From Halieaceae bacterium (GTDB lineage Bacteria; Pseudomonadota; Gammaproteobacteria; Pseudomonadales; Halieaceae): a stretch of 64,000 nucleotides of DNA. This document shows, one piece after another, positions 35,361 to 40,798 of the stretch. A program made the translations under genes and the position numbers. A model generated the notes under the pieces. It was not told the DNA's origin. It ran no database searches and saw nothing but the letters and a program-made list of their open reading frames with translations. The stretch spans positions 1 through 64,000 of the forward strand of contig JADGEN010000006.1 in NCBI GenBank assembly GCA_016744355.1, read 5' to 3'. Each line of letters opens with the position of its first letter. Position 1 is the first letter of the stretch.

Positions 35361-36173
35361 TTAGAAACGACCAGTCAGGCCAATGTTCCAAACTTCATTG
35401 TCATCGCCTTCTTCCGGAGTACTTACTGTATAGCCTGCATTAAGTGCAATGTGACTATTGAAAAAGTATTCCGCTTTTACGCCATATATCCCGGCTTCGG
35501 TGTAGTCGTCGTCCGAGGTTACATAGCCCAATACGCCACCAACACTAAAATTGTCATTGATGTAGTAGTTCAGGTCACCCGTTATACCGTAAGCATCGTC
35601 ACCAGACTCTACATCGGCATAAGTCAAATCAAGATCAAGGCCAAACTTGTTATTGAACAATTGCTTGTAGCCAACTGACCAGAAATCTTCTTCAGAATCC
35701 AGGTCGTCTACCTCGGAGTGCGCGTAGCCCAGAGTAATAGAAGACGCACCGGTGAGATAGTAGCCTATACCCACACCAAATGCTTCGGCGTCTGAATTAT
35801 CAATCTCTGTGGCAGCATAGTCCGCCTCCAGAATAAAGCCTGAGTCTGTAATGTAGCGGCCGCCCAGAGCCCATACGTCACCGTCTTCATCAAACTTGGG
35901 GCTAAAATCGGTACCGTCTATTTCCAGAGTAGTTCTACCCCAGCCAGCGTGAACACTGGAAGCCTGATCAAGGAACGCGGCTTCCGCTTTGGGCCCATTG
36001 CTATCATCTACAGGAGCCAGGTAAAAAGTACCTCCCAGCGTGTACGTTGTCAGGTCGATATTTTTTGAAATCTCGTCACTCACATAACCGGCTGTACCCT
36101 GTACACGATATTCGTCGGCAACAGCTGTTGTTGAAATAGCGGCAATTGCCGCGACAAGTAGTATTTTTTTCAT
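35361..36173 (-). CDS. Outer-membrane beta-barrel protein, Asp/Tyr-rich
   Basis: 270 residues from ATG 36173 (AAGGG upstream). Signal peptide (1-19, ISTTAVAD), then many alternating short strands (YRVQGTAGYVS, FILEADYAATEID, SITLGYAHSEVDD, FGLDLDLTYADVE) and a C-terminal aromatic ending IGLTGRF. No porin eyelet or OmpA domain is recognised. It is a small monomeric or trimeric channel-like protein, probably anchored in the outer membrane. Expression is monocistronic by its terminator and upstream gap. Confidence 0.75.
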   Translation of the reverse strand: MKKILLVAAIAAISTTAVADEYRVQGTAGYVSDEISKNIDLTTYTLGGTFYLAPVDDSNGPKAEAAFLDQASSVHAGWGRTTLEIDGTDFSPKFDEDGDVWALGGRYITDSGFILEADYAATEIDNSDAEAFGVGIGYYLTGASSITLGYAHSEVDDLDSEEDFWSVGYKQLFNNKFGLDLDLTYADVESGDDAYGITGDLNYYINDNFSVGGVLGYVTSDDDYTEAGIYGVKAEYFFNSHIALNAGYTVSTPEEGDDNEVWNIGLTGRF

Positions 36174-36481
36174 TGATGAACCCTTAATAGTTAAATGCAA
36201 ACCTTGGCCTCAACCAAGGCCGCGCATAATACGTAAATTTAGAGTGAAACCAAGTGAATAAGTCGCAGGAAAAAATTTGAATCTTTTCGAAAGCCTAGGC
36301 CTTAGAGAATACAATTGGGAGCGCAAATACCTCATAAAGTTGTAGTCTCTGTCGTCAGATCTAATGTTTGATAGATTTTCAAGTACTTTAGCTATAGGGT
36401 GTTTGCTCTGCGAAAATCACAGAAAGCACATAATTAAAGTCTGCAGTTCCAGACACCATCGACAATACTGAGATAAGAAGA
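36174..36481. other. Intergenic region (308 bases) between barrel protein and PRMT-like gene
   Basis: No credible gene is present. It must hold divergent promoters for the barrel gene (leftward) and the methyltransferase gene (rightward). It contains the repeated element at 36368-36407. The remainder is AT-rich with no further clear dyad that I could identify. Confidence 0.6.
36368..36407 (+). repeat. ~40-bp element shared with 28972-29010 (copy 2)
   Basis: Matches copy 1 at 34 of 40 aligned columns. It ends 74 bases before the PRMT-like start codon. TTGATA (36368-36373) and TATAGG (36393-36398) could be -35 and -10 hexamers 19 bases apart. The corresponding pair in copy 1 is TTGATA and CATAGG, 18 bases apart. 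Conserved downstream GGGT/CG/ATTTGCT suggests a regulator site at the start of transcription (inference). Confidence 0.6.
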
Positions 36482-37468
36482 ATGAGCAACGACAAAGATC
36501 ACTCTCCCTACCGCATGTCCTATCGCGACGTGGCAATGCACAAAGTAATGTTACAGGATGTCGTGCGTACCGATGCCTATGAGAAGTCGATCAACGAAGT
36601 GGTGAATCCGCTGCAGACCGTACTGGATTTTGGATGCGGGACAGGCGTCCTATCTATGTTTGCCTCGCGGGCAGGCGCTAAAAAAGTTATTGCGGTTGAC
36701 CGCTCTCCCTTTATCAAAACGGCGAGTGAGATCGCGGAAAAAAACGGTTTCGACAATATCGAGTTTTACCACGACGATCACCAGTCGCTGCAACTGGAAG
36801 AGAAAGTAGACGTTATCGTTTCAGAGTGGATGGGGCACTGCTTGTTTTATGAGGCCATGCTCGAGCCTTTACTAGCAGTACGAGATCGGTACTTGGCCGA
36901 GGACGGCATCATGATTCCCGCACAGGTGAGCCTGCATGCGGGCCTGGTCTACGATGAAGATTTGCTGGACGATTTATCGTTTCTGCGAGACCGACCTTAC
37001 GATTTAAATTTTTCACCAATAGCGGATACGCCCTTCCAGCAAACCGACCTGGTAACGCTGGACCCCGAAAGTCTGCTGCCTGACACGGCTCACCTGGGCT
37101 CTCTCAATATGCACACTATTACTAAAGCTGACAAACCCAGATTGTTTTCTGGAGTCATTAAGCCCAGTGAGAAAACCGAGATTTACGCCCTTTGTGCCTG
37201 GTTTAGCTCGCAACTGAGTCAAGGCGTGGAATTTGGCACCGGGCCAAATGATATGCCCACGCACTGGGACCAAATTCTTTTCCCTCTACCCGAGCCCTTT
37301 GCGGTTGACCCCTCGCGAGAACTGAGTATCGCGATATCCCCCTTGACCGAACAGGTCGGTAAGGAGCAGTGCTGGTCCTGGTCCATCACCGACGGCGACA
37401 AAACCATCAGCGTGAATGAGCAACAGCTGCGAACAGTGGAGCCTGAAGTGCCACAGGGCAAGTTGTAG
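36482..37468 (+). CDS. Protein arginine methyltransferase (PRMT)-like SAM methyltransferase
   Basis: 328 residues carrying every main PRMT hallmark. PYRMSYRDVAMHKVMLQDVV (9-28) matches the N-terminal YFxxY/HxxMLxD helix region of PRMT1; motif I VLDFGCGTGVLSMF (47-60); acidic VDRS (72-75); double-Glu loop SEWMGHCLFYEAM (114-126, Glu115 and Glu124); THW loop PTHWDQILFP (258-267); and the barrel in the C-terminal half. Eukaryotic PRMTs transfer methyl groups to arginine side chains. Bacterial PRMTs are uncommon and their targets unknown. No neighbour indicates a substrate. It stands alone in its transcription unit. Confidence 0.85.
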   Translation: MSNDKDHSPYRMSYRDVAMHKVMLQDVVRTDAYEKSINEVVNPLQTVLDFGCGTGVLSMFASRAGAKKVIAVDRSPFIKTASEIAEKNGFDNIEFYHDDHQSLQLEEKVDVIVSEWMGHCLFYEAMLEPLLAVRDRYLAEDGIMIPAQVSLHAGLVYDEDLLDDLSFLRDRPYDLNFSPIADTPFQQTDLVTLDPESLLPDTAHLGSLNMHTITKADKPRLFSGVIKPSEKTEIYALCAWFSSQLSQGVEFGTGPNDMPTHWDQILFPLPEPFAVDPSRELSIAISPLTEQVGKEQCWSWSITDGDKTISVNEQQLRTVEPEVPQGKL

Positions 37469-37668: not shown

Positions 37669-38319
37669 ATGAAAAATTTCAGTTTCCCCATCCTAGCAAT
37701 AGCTCTTTTTGTTCTGTCAGGCTGCCAGACAGGCCCCTTTGCGAAATCTCAAACAACGCCGCTATGCCCGGTAATCGAGGCGCCAGCATGCCCAGTGTGC
37801 AAAGTACAAAGCTGCCCTCAGCCGGAACCGACAGTACCACCCCAGGCTGAGAAAAAAGACAACAGCGTGCCCGAACCCAGGCTACAAACAATCGGCGAGC
37901 GGGAATGGGCTCTGGTTGAGCCCAGCGACCTCGTCCTGGAGGCGCGCATTGATACCGGCGCTGAGACCTCCTCCATCCATGCAGAAAACATTCAGCTAAT
38001 TGAGAAGGACGGCAAAAGATGGGTTCGCTTCAACCTTTCGAACCCGCAAACCGGCGCCGCCATTCCTCTTGAAAGACGTCTGCACCGCCGTATCCTCGTC
38101 AAACAAAAAACCGGCAGTAGAAGTGACAGGCGTTACGTGGTGCGAATGTGGCTCACTCTGGGAGAAAGCAGGGTCTGGGTTGACGTCAGCCTCTCCGATC
38201 GCGACGACTTTGAACTACCCTTATTGATAGGTCGTAACATGTTGATGGACAACTTTTCCGTGGATGTCAGCGCGCATCACACCCTGGCCAAGCCAGCGTT
38301 ACAAGCAGAAGAGCAGTAA
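37669..38319 (+). CDS. Lipoprotein retropepsin-like aspartic protease (RimK-associated/DUF785 'zinc protease' family)
   Basis: 216 residues. Lipobox LSGC with Cys19, then a Cys/Pro-rich linker (four C-P motifs between 33 and 50). The catalytic motif IDTGAETSSIHA (94-105) is the retropepsin-like active site with Asp95. The family was first annotated as an ATP-dependent zinc protease and is found beside ATP-grasp ligases. Here it is first in an operon with an inactive-transglutaminase-7TM protein and an ATP-grasp ligase (2-base gap, then 4-base overlap). It is anchored in the periplasm. Linked systems in pseudomonads have been tied to osmotic stress, from memory and unverified. Confidence 0.85.
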   Translation: MKNFSFPILAIALFVLSGCQTGPFAKSQTTPLCPVIEAPACPVCKVQSCPQPEPTVPPQAEKKDNSVPEPRLQTIGEREWALVEPSDLVLEARIDTGAETSSIHAENIQLIEKDGKRWVRFNLSNPQTGAAIPLERRLHRRILVKQKTGSRSDRRYVVRMWLTLGESRVWVDVSLSDRDDFELPLLIGRNMLMDNFSVDVSAHHTLAKPALQAEEQ

Positions 38320-38321
38320 GC

Positions 38322-39839
38322 GTGGTTGCCTCAAAAACACAAATTGGAATCATCGCCGGCCTGCTGATTTCGTTCGGCCTTGGACTGACAATTTATAAGT
38401 CCATAACGCTTGGGCTTCCGCTTATTCCACAACAGTACCGGGATGTCTGGACAATTGAAGCTAAAGCCAGCTTTTCCCCCACGGATAGCCCCGTTGAAGT
38501 AACACTCACCCTGCCCGAAGACCACAACGGGTGGGTTACCCTTAATGAAAACTATTCCTCGTCCGGGTTTGGCTTCACTATCCTAGAAAACGATCTCGGC
38601 AGTCATGCACGATGGACCAAACAGACTGTGAAAGAACCCACTACGGTCTACTACAAAGCAGAAGTCTACGAACAAGCTAGCGATTATACTCCTGTGGTCT
38701 TCGCAACTACCCTGTCGAGAACGACACCGCAGCAGGAAAAAACCTTTAACTATCTTGTAGATAGCCTGCGTAAAAAATCTACCGACGATGAAGGCTTTGT
38801 CACGCTGCTACTACAAGAATTTTTGGCAGCCAGTAATAGCCAGGAAGTTCAGTTTATTCTCAGCAGTACGCATGAAAGCAAGATCAAAGCTATCCTGCAG
38901 TTACTTACTTTTGCCAATATTCCGGCACACCCCATCAAAGGCATCCAGCTAGAAGATGGCCGCAGACGGCAAACGCTCAACGAACTGCTAGAGGTTTACA
39001 CCGGAAAGGAGTGGGTCATTTTTAACCCGGATGATGGATCCTCTGGACTTCCCGATGACTATTATATTTGGAAACGCGGCGACAACGCCGTGCTCACAGT
39101 AATCGGCGGAGAAAAGTCCAGCCTGGAATTTGCATTGGTAAAAAACAACCTGCCCCTGCGAACCGTAATAAGCATGGAGCAACGATCCAACAAATATGCC
39201 CTGCTGGACTTTTCCATCTACTCCCTACCCGTTGAGCAACAGGGGATTTTCAAGGGCCTGTTACTGATTCCGATCGCAGCACTGGTGGTCGTCTTTATGC
39301 GCATAGGCGTGGGAGTTTCGACCTCGGGTACTTTTATGCCTATTTTGTTAGCGCTGGCTTTGATGCAAACCACCTTGCTGGTGGGATTGGCCATGTTTGC
39401 GTTGGTAGTGGGGGTGGGCCTGTGGATACGATCCTATCTGAGTCATATGAATTTACTGTTGGTCGCCAGGGTTGCCTCCGTGGTGATCGTAGTGATCCTG
39501 TTAATGGCTGTAGTCGCGGTCATAAGCTATAAACTGGGCATCGATCAGGCTCTCACCGTGACATTCTTCCCCACTATTATTCTGGCATGGACAATAGAAC
39601 GTATGTCTATCTTGTGGGAGGAAGAAGGCGGCCATGAGGTGTTAATCCAGGGCAGCGGCAGCCTGGTTGTCGCTGTGCTCGCCTACCTCGTTATGTCCAA
39701 TCGTTATGTGGAACACTTGACCTTTAACTTTCCCGAACTGCTTATCGCACTGCTGGGCGTGATTTTGTTAATGGGCAAATACACAGGCTATCGCCTCTCC
39801 GAACTGTATCGATTCAGGGAGATGAAGAAACAATTATGA
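38322..39839 (+). CDS. Inactive transglutaminase domain fused to 7 transmembrane helices
   Basis: 505 residues, GTG start 2 bases after the previous stop. An N-terminal TM helix (about 8-28), a periplasmic region (about 40-300) with a transglutaminase-like fold containing KEWVIFNPDDGSSG, then six or seven hydrophobic helices (about 305-495). The domain family is known by its layout; the Cys/His/Asp triad is not present, hence 'inactive'. It may recruit or sense peptides and pass a signal to the ATP-grasp partner. The product ends inside the start codon of the next gene (ATGA). Confidence 0.85.
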   Translation: MVASKTQIGIIAGLLISFGLGLTIYKSITLGLPLIPQQYRDVWTIEAKASFSPTDSPVEVTLTLPEDHNGWVTLNENYSSSGFGFTILENDLGSHARWTKQTVKEPTTVYYKAEVYEQASDYTPVVFATTLSRTTPQQEKTFNYLVDSLRKKSTDDEGFVTLLLQEFLAASNSQEVQFILSSTHESKIKAILQLLTFANIPAHPIKGIQLEDGRRRQTLNELLEVYTGKEWVIFNPDDGSSGLPDDYYIWKRGDNAVLTVIGGEKSSLEFALVKNNLPLRTVISMEQRSNKYALLDFSIYSLPVEQQGIFKGLLLIPIAALVVVFMRIGVGVSTSGTFMPILLALALMQTTLLVGLAMFALVVGVGLWIRSYLSHMNLLLVARVASVVIVVILLMAVVAVISYKLGIDQALTVTFFPTIILAWTIERMSILWEEEGGHEVLIQGSGSLVVAVLAYLVMSNRYVEHLTFNFPELLIALLGVILLMGKYTGYRLSELYRFREMKKQL

Positions 39840-40798
39840 TCAGCCTCATCTCACCAAAATCCCTGCGCTCACTGGGTATCGTTGGAATGAACCGGCGCAA
39901 CATCAGCTTTATTGGCAAACACAATAAGCGCAGCAAATATCGCCTGGTTGATGACAAACTGCTTACCAAGAAAATTGCGCTGGAAAAAGGTGGCATCCCG
40001 GTTCCGGAGCTTTATGGGGTTGTTGAATACCTGTTTCAAATTAACGACTTTCTGAAAGAAATTCAGCAGCGTGAAAGCTTTGTGATCAAACCGGTACAGG
40101 GCAGTGGCGGCAAGGGAATTCTGGTGGTCACTGGCCGTGACGGAGAGGCCTTTATCAAATCCAGCGGAACAAGAATCTACAACAGCGATATACGCCACCA
40201 CATTACGAATACCCTGGCTGGCCTTTATAGTCTGGGAGGGCGCAACGACCGGGCCATGGTTGAGGGCTTGATAGACTTCGATCCATTACTAAAACAGTAC
40301 AGCCATGAAGGGGTCCCTGACATTCGCGTCATCGTGTTTAAGGGTGTGCCACTAATGGCTATGATGCGCTGCGCCACCCACAAATCAGATGGTAAAGCCA
40401 ACCTGCACCAGGGCGCCGTTGGTGTTGGACTAGACATAGCTACCGGACACTGCGTATCCGCAGTGCAAAATAGTGTTCTGGTTACGGAGCACCCGGACAC
40501 GGGAGCGGTTTTCAGTAAACTGCGCGTTCCCCACTGGGACCGAGTTATTGAACTCGCTGCCAGCTGCACTGCATTGACCGGGCTTGGCTACATAGGCGCA
40601 GACGTTGTACTCGACAGAAAGTCAGGCCCAATGTTATTGGAGCTGAACGCACGGCCCGGACTGGCCATACAGGTAGCCAACCAAGCCGGCTTAATACATC
40701 GAATGGATATTGCGCAGGAGATTATCGAGACTACCGATGATCCGGTGCTACGTATTCAACTCGCAAAATCACACTTCACTTCGACAAGCGCAATATGA
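39836..40798 (+). CDS. ATP-grasp alpha-L-glutamate ligase-like protein
   Basis: 320 residues. ATP-grasp motifs: FVIKPVQGSGGKGILVV (phosphate-binding loop, near 81-97) and the Mg-binding MLLELNARPGLAIQVANQAG near 265-284. These sugar-transfer/alpha-L-glutamate ligase-like proteins form amide or peptide bonds using ATP. They are consistently found with the retropepsin and 7TM partner genes. The substrate is unproven; a periplasmic or envelope glycan/peptide modification is plausible. It starts by a 4-base overlap with the 7TM gene. Confidence 0.9.
   Translation: MISLISPKSLRSLGIVGMNRRNISFIGKHNKRSKYRLVDDKLLTKKIALEKGGIPVPELYGVVEYLFQINDFLKEIQQRESFVIKPVQGSGGKGILVVTGRDGEAFIKSSGTRIYNSDIRHHITNTLAGLYSLGGRNDRAMVEGLIDFDPLLKQYSHEGVPDIRVIVFKGVPLMAMMRCATHKSDGKANLHQGAVGVGLDIATGHCVSAVQNSVLVTEHPDTGAVFSKLRVPHWDRVIELAASCTALTGLGYIGADVVLDRKSGPMLLELNARPGLAIQVANQAGLIHRMDIAQEIIETTDDPVLRIQLAKSHFTSTSAI

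Follow-up and report, generated by a model that had tools for sequence, protein, structure and literature searches.

A type I-like member of the protein arginine methyltransferase family in a Halieaceae bacterium

Protein arginine methyltransferases (PRMTs) are usually described as eukaryotic. What, then, is a gene with PRMT motifs in a Halieaceae bacterium, where might it come from and on what might its product act? The gene (P0001) lies in a stretch of 64,000 nucleotides, here called the window. It is a single open reading frame on the forward strand (36482..37468) that starts with ATG and encodes 328 residues, and a purine-rich stretch ahead of the ATG, GAGATAAGAAGA (36470..36481, +), may serve as a ribosome-binding site, judging from its letters. 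The sequence-only reading of this DNA had claimed a near-complete PRMT signature in eukaryotic order, had called such bacterial enzymes rare and without an obvious partner here, and had proposed profile searches, structure prediction and a tree as checks.

Sequence, active site and predicted fold

A phmmer search of PDB sequences with the 328-residue protein returned 76 chains at E<=0.001. PRMTs are the best of these, headed by Naegleria PRMT1 (E 7.8e-42), the chain 9vkf, which is listed as PRMT1 and nearly identical to yeast Hmt1 1g6q (E 1.4e-41), yeast Hmt1 itself (E 1.9e-41) and PRMT3 (E 1.6e-40), and the alignments to the best PRMT chains cover residues 5-281. Pfam methyltransferase models score above their cut-offs over the SAM-binding Rossmann core with motif I, and the PRMT_C model (PF22528) reaches 54.3 bits, twice its cut-off of 27, over the beta-barrel and oligomerisation region at residues 150-286 (36929..37339, +). 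The profile search thus places PRMT_C above cut-off and PRMT1 and PRMT3 at the top of the PDB sequence matches.

The motifs follow one another as they do in PRMT1, so that the claimed eukaryotic order is borne out over 36482-37468 (+) by alignment, and their presence is beyond chance given the E-value of the top match; the claimed signature holds except that the YFxxY motif keeps its last Tyr only. Residues were compared in a MAFFT alignment with PRMT1 in its 353-aa numbering, anchored on 1orh. The N-terminal helix at residues 14-25 (36521..36556, +), the equivalent of PRMT1 helix X, conserves Y14, H20 and M23 and is followed by D26 and R29, the five aligning with PRMT1 Y39, H45, M48, D51 and R54. 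In the YFxxY motif the kept Tyr is Y14, the Y35 equivalent varies and the F36 equivalent is an invariant Arg11. SAM motif I, VLDFGCGTGVL (residues 47-57; 36620..36652, +), brings D49-x-G51-C-G53-T-G55 onto PRMT1 G78/G80/G82. The double-Glu loop, SEWMGHCLFYEAM (residues 114-126; 36821..36859, +), reads S114-E115-W-M-G-H-C-L-F-Y-E124-A-M126 and aligns with PRMT1 E144/E153/M155, and the THW loop, THWDQ (residues 260-264; 37259..37273, +), places T260-H261-W262 onto PRMT1 H293/W294, with H261, at the place of the catalytic His, corresponding to H293 and D26 being the paired Asp close to the N-terminal helix. Altogether, PRMT1 Y39, H45, M48, D51, R54, G78, G80, G82, E144, W145, M146, G147, Y152, E153, M155, H293, W294 and Q296 are kept. 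Of these, E144, E153, M48, M155, H293, D51 and R54 are established functional residues in PRMT enzymology.

The departures from PRMT1 are few. E100 is replaced by Asp, a change also seen in the enzymes of yeast and Naegleria and in rat PRMT3, the Glu at position 129 is variable in the close clade of the protein (Q/D/E/H), Y148 has become His and K295 Asp, turning THWKQ into THWDQ. Across 13 close-clade sequences E115, E124, R29, D26, H261, M23 and M126 are invariant, and so is the T260-H261-W262 triad in the close clade. The SEWMGxxLxYExM loop of type I enzymes is present together with the Met pair M23/M126 (PRMT1 M48 and M155), both Mets being invariant; since YFxxY is incomplete, we call the protein type I-like rather than filing it as type I. 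At its C-terminus stands a GKL tail (37457..37465, +) whose Gly-Lys is invariant across the clade and for which model confidence is low.

The predicted fold agrees. AlphaFold2, given an alignment of 25 bacterial sequences and no templates, yielded a model with pLDDT 89.5 and pTM 0.86, for which the best 50 Foldseek matches in the PDB are all PRMTs, the best being PRMT3 4hsg (E 3.6e-33, TM 0.81/0.89). VIA-align superposes residues 16-314 of the model on PRMT1 1or8 with Z 33.5 over 298 residues at 2.1 A; the proposed structure prediction thereby recovers the PRMT1 fold, and since the superposition extends over 298 residues, barrel and dimerisation arm are present. Helices occupy residues 159-186 of the model in the place of the arm, and the helical insertion in the barrel at this position probably extends over about residues 159-191 (36956..37054, +), as judged from the model secondary structure and the PRMT1 alignment. 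It had also been asked whether the two glutamates face a substrate pocket. Indirectly this appears to be so, since E115 and E124 align with PRMT1 E144 and E153 and the model superposes on PRMT1 over its entire fold. The idea of a bacterial PRMT with eukaryotic architecture is thus upheld by the sequence, by the profile matches, by the model and by the conserved residues, and on sequence and model we conclude that the protein is a genuine member of the PRMT family, best described as type I-like.

Distribution and origin

How widespread is this gene? We scanned one genome per species from 84,980 species with six 8-residue patterns and found 11 loci of the clade, with close relatives 69-82% identical and confined to gammaproteobacteria. 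The hosts include Glaciecola, HTCC2143, Haliea, Pseudohalioglobus and one Hahellaceae MAG, and the isolates that carry the same gene are Glaciecola pallidula, HTCC2143 and Pseudohalioglobus lutimaris. Within the family of the window genome the clade is found in 5 of 140 genomes, and the window genome itself has one PRMT_C gene. Below the clade there is a gap in identity, the next bacterial homologues being about 30% identical. No relatives were found in phages or E. coli, and plasmids and viral contigs yielded divergent relatives only, at less than about 40% identity; among the latter, the 289 kb viral contig IMGVR_UViG_3300025502_001322 carries two different divergent PRMT-like genes, and others lie on further viral contigs (L071-L078). 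The claim of rarity therefore stands for the clade, with its 11 loci and its 5 family genomes, but not for bacterial PRMT-like proteins at large, the more divergent of which are not rare. Full-text searches of the open-licence literature found no papers on such bacterial PRMTs. Where dS is measurable, dN/dS is 0.07-0.10, indicating purifying selection; dS is saturated in most pairs that involve the window gene. Purifying selection and the presence of the same gene in other assemblies, isolates among them, indicate a real and constrained bacterial gene.

The tree was sampled with ten or so eukaryotic chains and with bacteria from the Pseudomonadota. Eukaryotic rows were PDB chain segments of human and Naegleria PRMT1, Hmt1, PRMT3, CARM1, PRMT6, PRMT9 and mouse and T. 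brucei PRMT7; the human PRMT1 and CARM1 query letters are identical to the PDB chains over the whole query. In a second tree mouse and zebrafish PRMT2, also as PDB chain letters, were added and mouse PRMT7 was left out. IQ-TREE was run on 44 and on 48 rows. The window clade is supported at 100/100 and joins the eukaryotic PRMT1/2/3/4/6 group at 97/88 (44 rows) and 98/95 (48 rows), the eukaryotic type I group standing by itself at 96/98 and 100/99, and eukaryotic PRMT7/9 group with bacterial TPR-PRMT-type proteins at 100/100. In AU tests a single origin for every eukaryotic PRMT in one clade is rejected (p 0.001 and 0.0003). Placing the window clade with PRMT1/3 (p 0.16 and 0.06) or with the other bacterial non-TPR PRMTs (p 0.16 and 0.12) is not rejected. 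The proposed tree thus sets the window clade as sister to, and outside, the eukaryotic PRMT1/2/3/4/6 group in the best trees. That no other bacterial clade stands nearer than this one to the eukaryotic PRMT1-type enzymes is our best reading of these trees, but not a settled one, given a sampling of ten or so eukaryotic chains and Pseudomonadota.

Two histories may be considered for this topology. It is possible that bacteria had PRMT1-type enzymes earlier than eukaryotes or alongside them and that PRMT7/9 came from a separate bacterial TPR-PRMT lineage; if the window clade is the bacterial sister of PRMT1/2/3/4/6 while PRMT7/9 stem from TPR-PRMTs, eukaryotes would have acquired PRMTs at least twice from bacteria. 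The tree does suggest different bacterial relatives for the two types of eukaryotic enzyme, and we put this history forward tentatively, as one that we would not expect to prevail. It is also possible, if still on the unlikely side, that a eukaryotic PRMT1-type gene was transferred into a marine gammaproteobacterium and then spread, an alternative that concerns origin and is weighed apart from those on function. The patchy distribution would fit such a transfer, as would the 69-82% identity among unrelated genera, the long stem of the clade (1.2 changes per site) beneath a shallow crown, the AU values for nesting with PRMT1/3 and the SEWMG...YExM motif, which elsewhere in this analysis was seen only in eukaryotic type I enzymes. 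However, in the best trees the clade branches outside every eukaryotic type I enzyme in the sample, the group of these enzymes being well supported (96/98; 100/99), and identity to any eukaryotic PRMT is about 35% at best. Since eukaryotic sampling was small, with at most 8 type I rows, a donor outside the sample is possible.

Genomic surroundings, candidate substrates and a second PRMT-fold protein

Upstream of the gene lies a porin-like gene (35361-36200, -), and downstream a cassette of a retropepsin-like peptidase, an RloB-like inactive transglutaminase/7TM protein and a RimK-related ATP-grasp ligase (37669-40798, +). An all-against-all comparison of the open reading frames around 12 relatives and in the window found no gene common beyond close relatives, and since neighbours differ among relatives, the PRMT gene is an orphan in many contexts. 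The cassette was considered as a partner and set aside: in the PRMT-carrying genomes G905 and G924 the ligase and the PRMT are on separate contigs, and genomes that lack the PRMT have the ligase too, which makes the cassette an incidental neighbour. Two leads on the substrate come from relatives. In L001 the start of the gene for VF530, a DNA-binding protein whose tail bears R/G (1197-1744, +), overlaps the stop of the PRMT gene (TAATG), which suggests translational coupling and a possible operon in that genome alone. VF530 was likewise rejected as a partner; long-tailed VF530 proteins also occur where the PRMT is missing, and the only VF530 of the window genome is short-tailed.

A further lead is an RhlE-like DEAD-box helicase of the window genome (L134) with a short RG-rich C-terminal tail, RGGGGRNNGGNRGNNSRGRGRAG... 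The RG-tailed subfamily to which it belongs (L134, L172-L200) occurs in 30 of 140 family genomes overall and in each of the five among them that carry the PRMT, a co-occurrence with p 3e-4 when counted per genome and 0.04 per genus, uncorrected and with several partners tried. The helicase gene lies 0.2 and 3.1 kb upstream of the PRMT gene in two Haliea MAGs and 22-24 kb away in two more carriers; in the window genome it is on a different contig (C9). The helicase type occurs without the PRMT in 25 family genomes, and it is lacking in Glaciecola and HTCC2143, which carry the PRMT but stand outside the family. One genome with the helicase and without the PRMT (G907) has no comparable surroundings, so that no empty PRMT site can be read there. 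A search of the window genome for RGG-repeat DNA patterns gave none, or no more than chance would. The RG-tailed RhlE helicase is thus the best candidate substrate, a weakly supported one that we would sooner doubt than adopt.

The statement that there is no histone or obvious partner nearby is accurate as to histones and the immediate neighbours, but about 15 kb upstream lies a second PRMT-fold protein, which is invisible by sequence and so could not have been noticed in that reading. This protein, P0004 (20302..21348, +), has 348 residues, shares no operon with the first gene and was recognised through predicted fold and profile comparison. Searches gave no match in Pfam or NCBIfam and no convincing one among PDB sequences, while its profile matches the PRMT alignment with probability 93.7, the invariant E173 and E182 of its conserved E-x8-E loop (AETMQKSLEQEP) aligning with E115 and E124. 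Its AlphaFold model (pLDDT 81.8, pTM 0.86) has PRMTs as all top 50 matches in the PDB, PRMT5 and PRMT7 being the best (Z 17.9). As far as the model tells, the window encodes in P0004 at the very least another PRMT-fold protein, one that might or might not have arginine as its target. Orthologues are present in 18 of 140 family genomes, including four of the five PRMT carriers and 14 genomes without a PRMT of the window clade, and the gene was not found in the carrier G924. Neighbourhood comparison with the window showed a gene 62% identical to P0004 in G923, two genes further on from the PRMT; one homologue is L217 (140-1222, -). It is possible that P0004 is a companion of the first PRMT. That a PRMT-fold protein goes unrecognised by sequence libraries suggests that bacterial PRMT-like enzymes are under-annotated.

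Proposed function and relation to known enzymes

We propose that the window protein is probably a type I-like protein arginine N-methyltransferase, SAM-dependent and of class I, that stands alone and forms homodimers, a proposal built on homology, predicted fold, the conserved catalytic set and purifying selection. SAM would bind at the GxGxG motif and the N-terminal helix would order over the cofactor. The substrate arginine would sit between E115 and E124, and these two, with R29, D26 and H261, would hold its guanidino group and activate it to attack the methyl group, while M23 and M126, as in PRMT1, may favour monomethyl- and then asymmetric dimethylarginine. Given the dimerisation arm in the barrel, the protein should dimerise, and the arm would make the dimer head-to-tail. 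We infer that the protein methylates arginine, that its substrate is a protein rather than a small molecule and that its product is ADMA.

Other functions can be envisaged. Bacterial arginine methyltransferases include SznE, which methylates the guanidino group of arginine in the streptozotocin pathway and a homologue of which, at 31% identity, led to the saskemycin cluster (PMC12637814), and a related bacterial PRMT-like domain sits inside an annotated NRPS gene on a Nostoc plasmid. The substrate might thus be free arginine, an arginine-containing small molecule or a biosynthetic peptide rather than folded proteins. We consider this unlikely, as no biosynthetic-looking or conserved neighbourhood exists among the relatives and both tree and fold bring the protein nearest to the eukaryotic type I enzymes, which modify proteins. 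Less probable still is that the protein has no catalytic activity and serves another PRMT-fold protein as scaffold or prozyme. P0004, with its homologue two genes from the PRMT in G923, would be at hand for such a complex, and trypanosome PRMT1 is an enzyme-prozyme complex according to the title of PDB entry 6dnz; however, every catalytic residue is invariant across the clade, unlike what is expected of a dead subunit, and P0004 was not found in G924 and occurs in the 14 genomes without this PRMT. That the protein is simply PrmA, the enzyme that methylates protein L11 of the 50S ribosomal subunit, or some other generic methyltransferase can practically be dismissed: the PrmA profile does match (E 5e-13) and several distant plasmid relatives are annotated as PrmA, but the match is limited to the SAM-binding half (residues 45-114), the NCBIfam PrmA score is 47.5 bits against a cut-off of 188, and PRMT barrel, arm, double-E loop and THW loop are all present. 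A protein arginine methyltransferase therefore remains our preferred reading. Glaciecola, Pseudohalioglobus and HTCC2143 are cultured marine bacteria, and since they carry this compact PRMT homologue with its catalytic residues complete, it becomes directly testable whether bacteria place ADMA on proteins, and on which, and where eukaryotic PRMTs came from.

How does the window protein compare with known systems? SznE shares bacterial methylation of the arginine guanidino group but differs in having a small-molecule substrate within a biosynthetic cluster, a likeness drawn from its description only. Bacterial TPR-PRMT-type proteins (L046, L047 and others) and eukaryotic PRMT7/PRMT9 belong to the same family and have the SAM motif, but carry an ETFDxxxxGE loop and form a mutual group (100/100) away from the window clade. 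The bacterial PRMT-domain proteins L046, L047, L056, L028 and others resemble PRMT9/PRMT7, and L046 has an N-terminal TPR array in Pfam. Bacterial proteins with a SETLGN..EEN loop (L016, L018, L023-L027, L045) are PRMT-family members that have two loop glutamates and THW but are about 22-26% identical to the window protein, differ in loop motif and fall in a separate clade (100/99). Bacterial PRMTs that end in SEC-C (L021, L022, L043) likewise have the Glu pair and THW, and L022 has PRMT_C, but their loop is SETLG, they carry a C-terminal SEC-C zinc motif and they too form a separate clade; in L022 Pfam finds PF02810 (SEC-C), and its best PDB match is PRMT6. The window's own family also has a PRMT-like subfamily (L017, L164-L167, L169, L171) with a degenerate loop, SVFTGNxLxxEDLLP, in which the first Glu is lost, and with a conserved C-terminal extension. 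The closest parallel is with eukaryotic type I PRMT1, Hmt1 and PRMT3, with which the window protein shares the order and spacing of the motifs, the entire fold (about 298 residues superposed at 2 A, Z about 33), the SEWMGxxLxYExM loop, the THW loop, the equivalents of D51, R54, H293, M48 and M155, and the barrel arm. It differs from them in its bacterial host, in an identity of about 32-35%, in a partial YFxxY, in THWDQ for THWKQ and His for Y148, and in having no extra domain.
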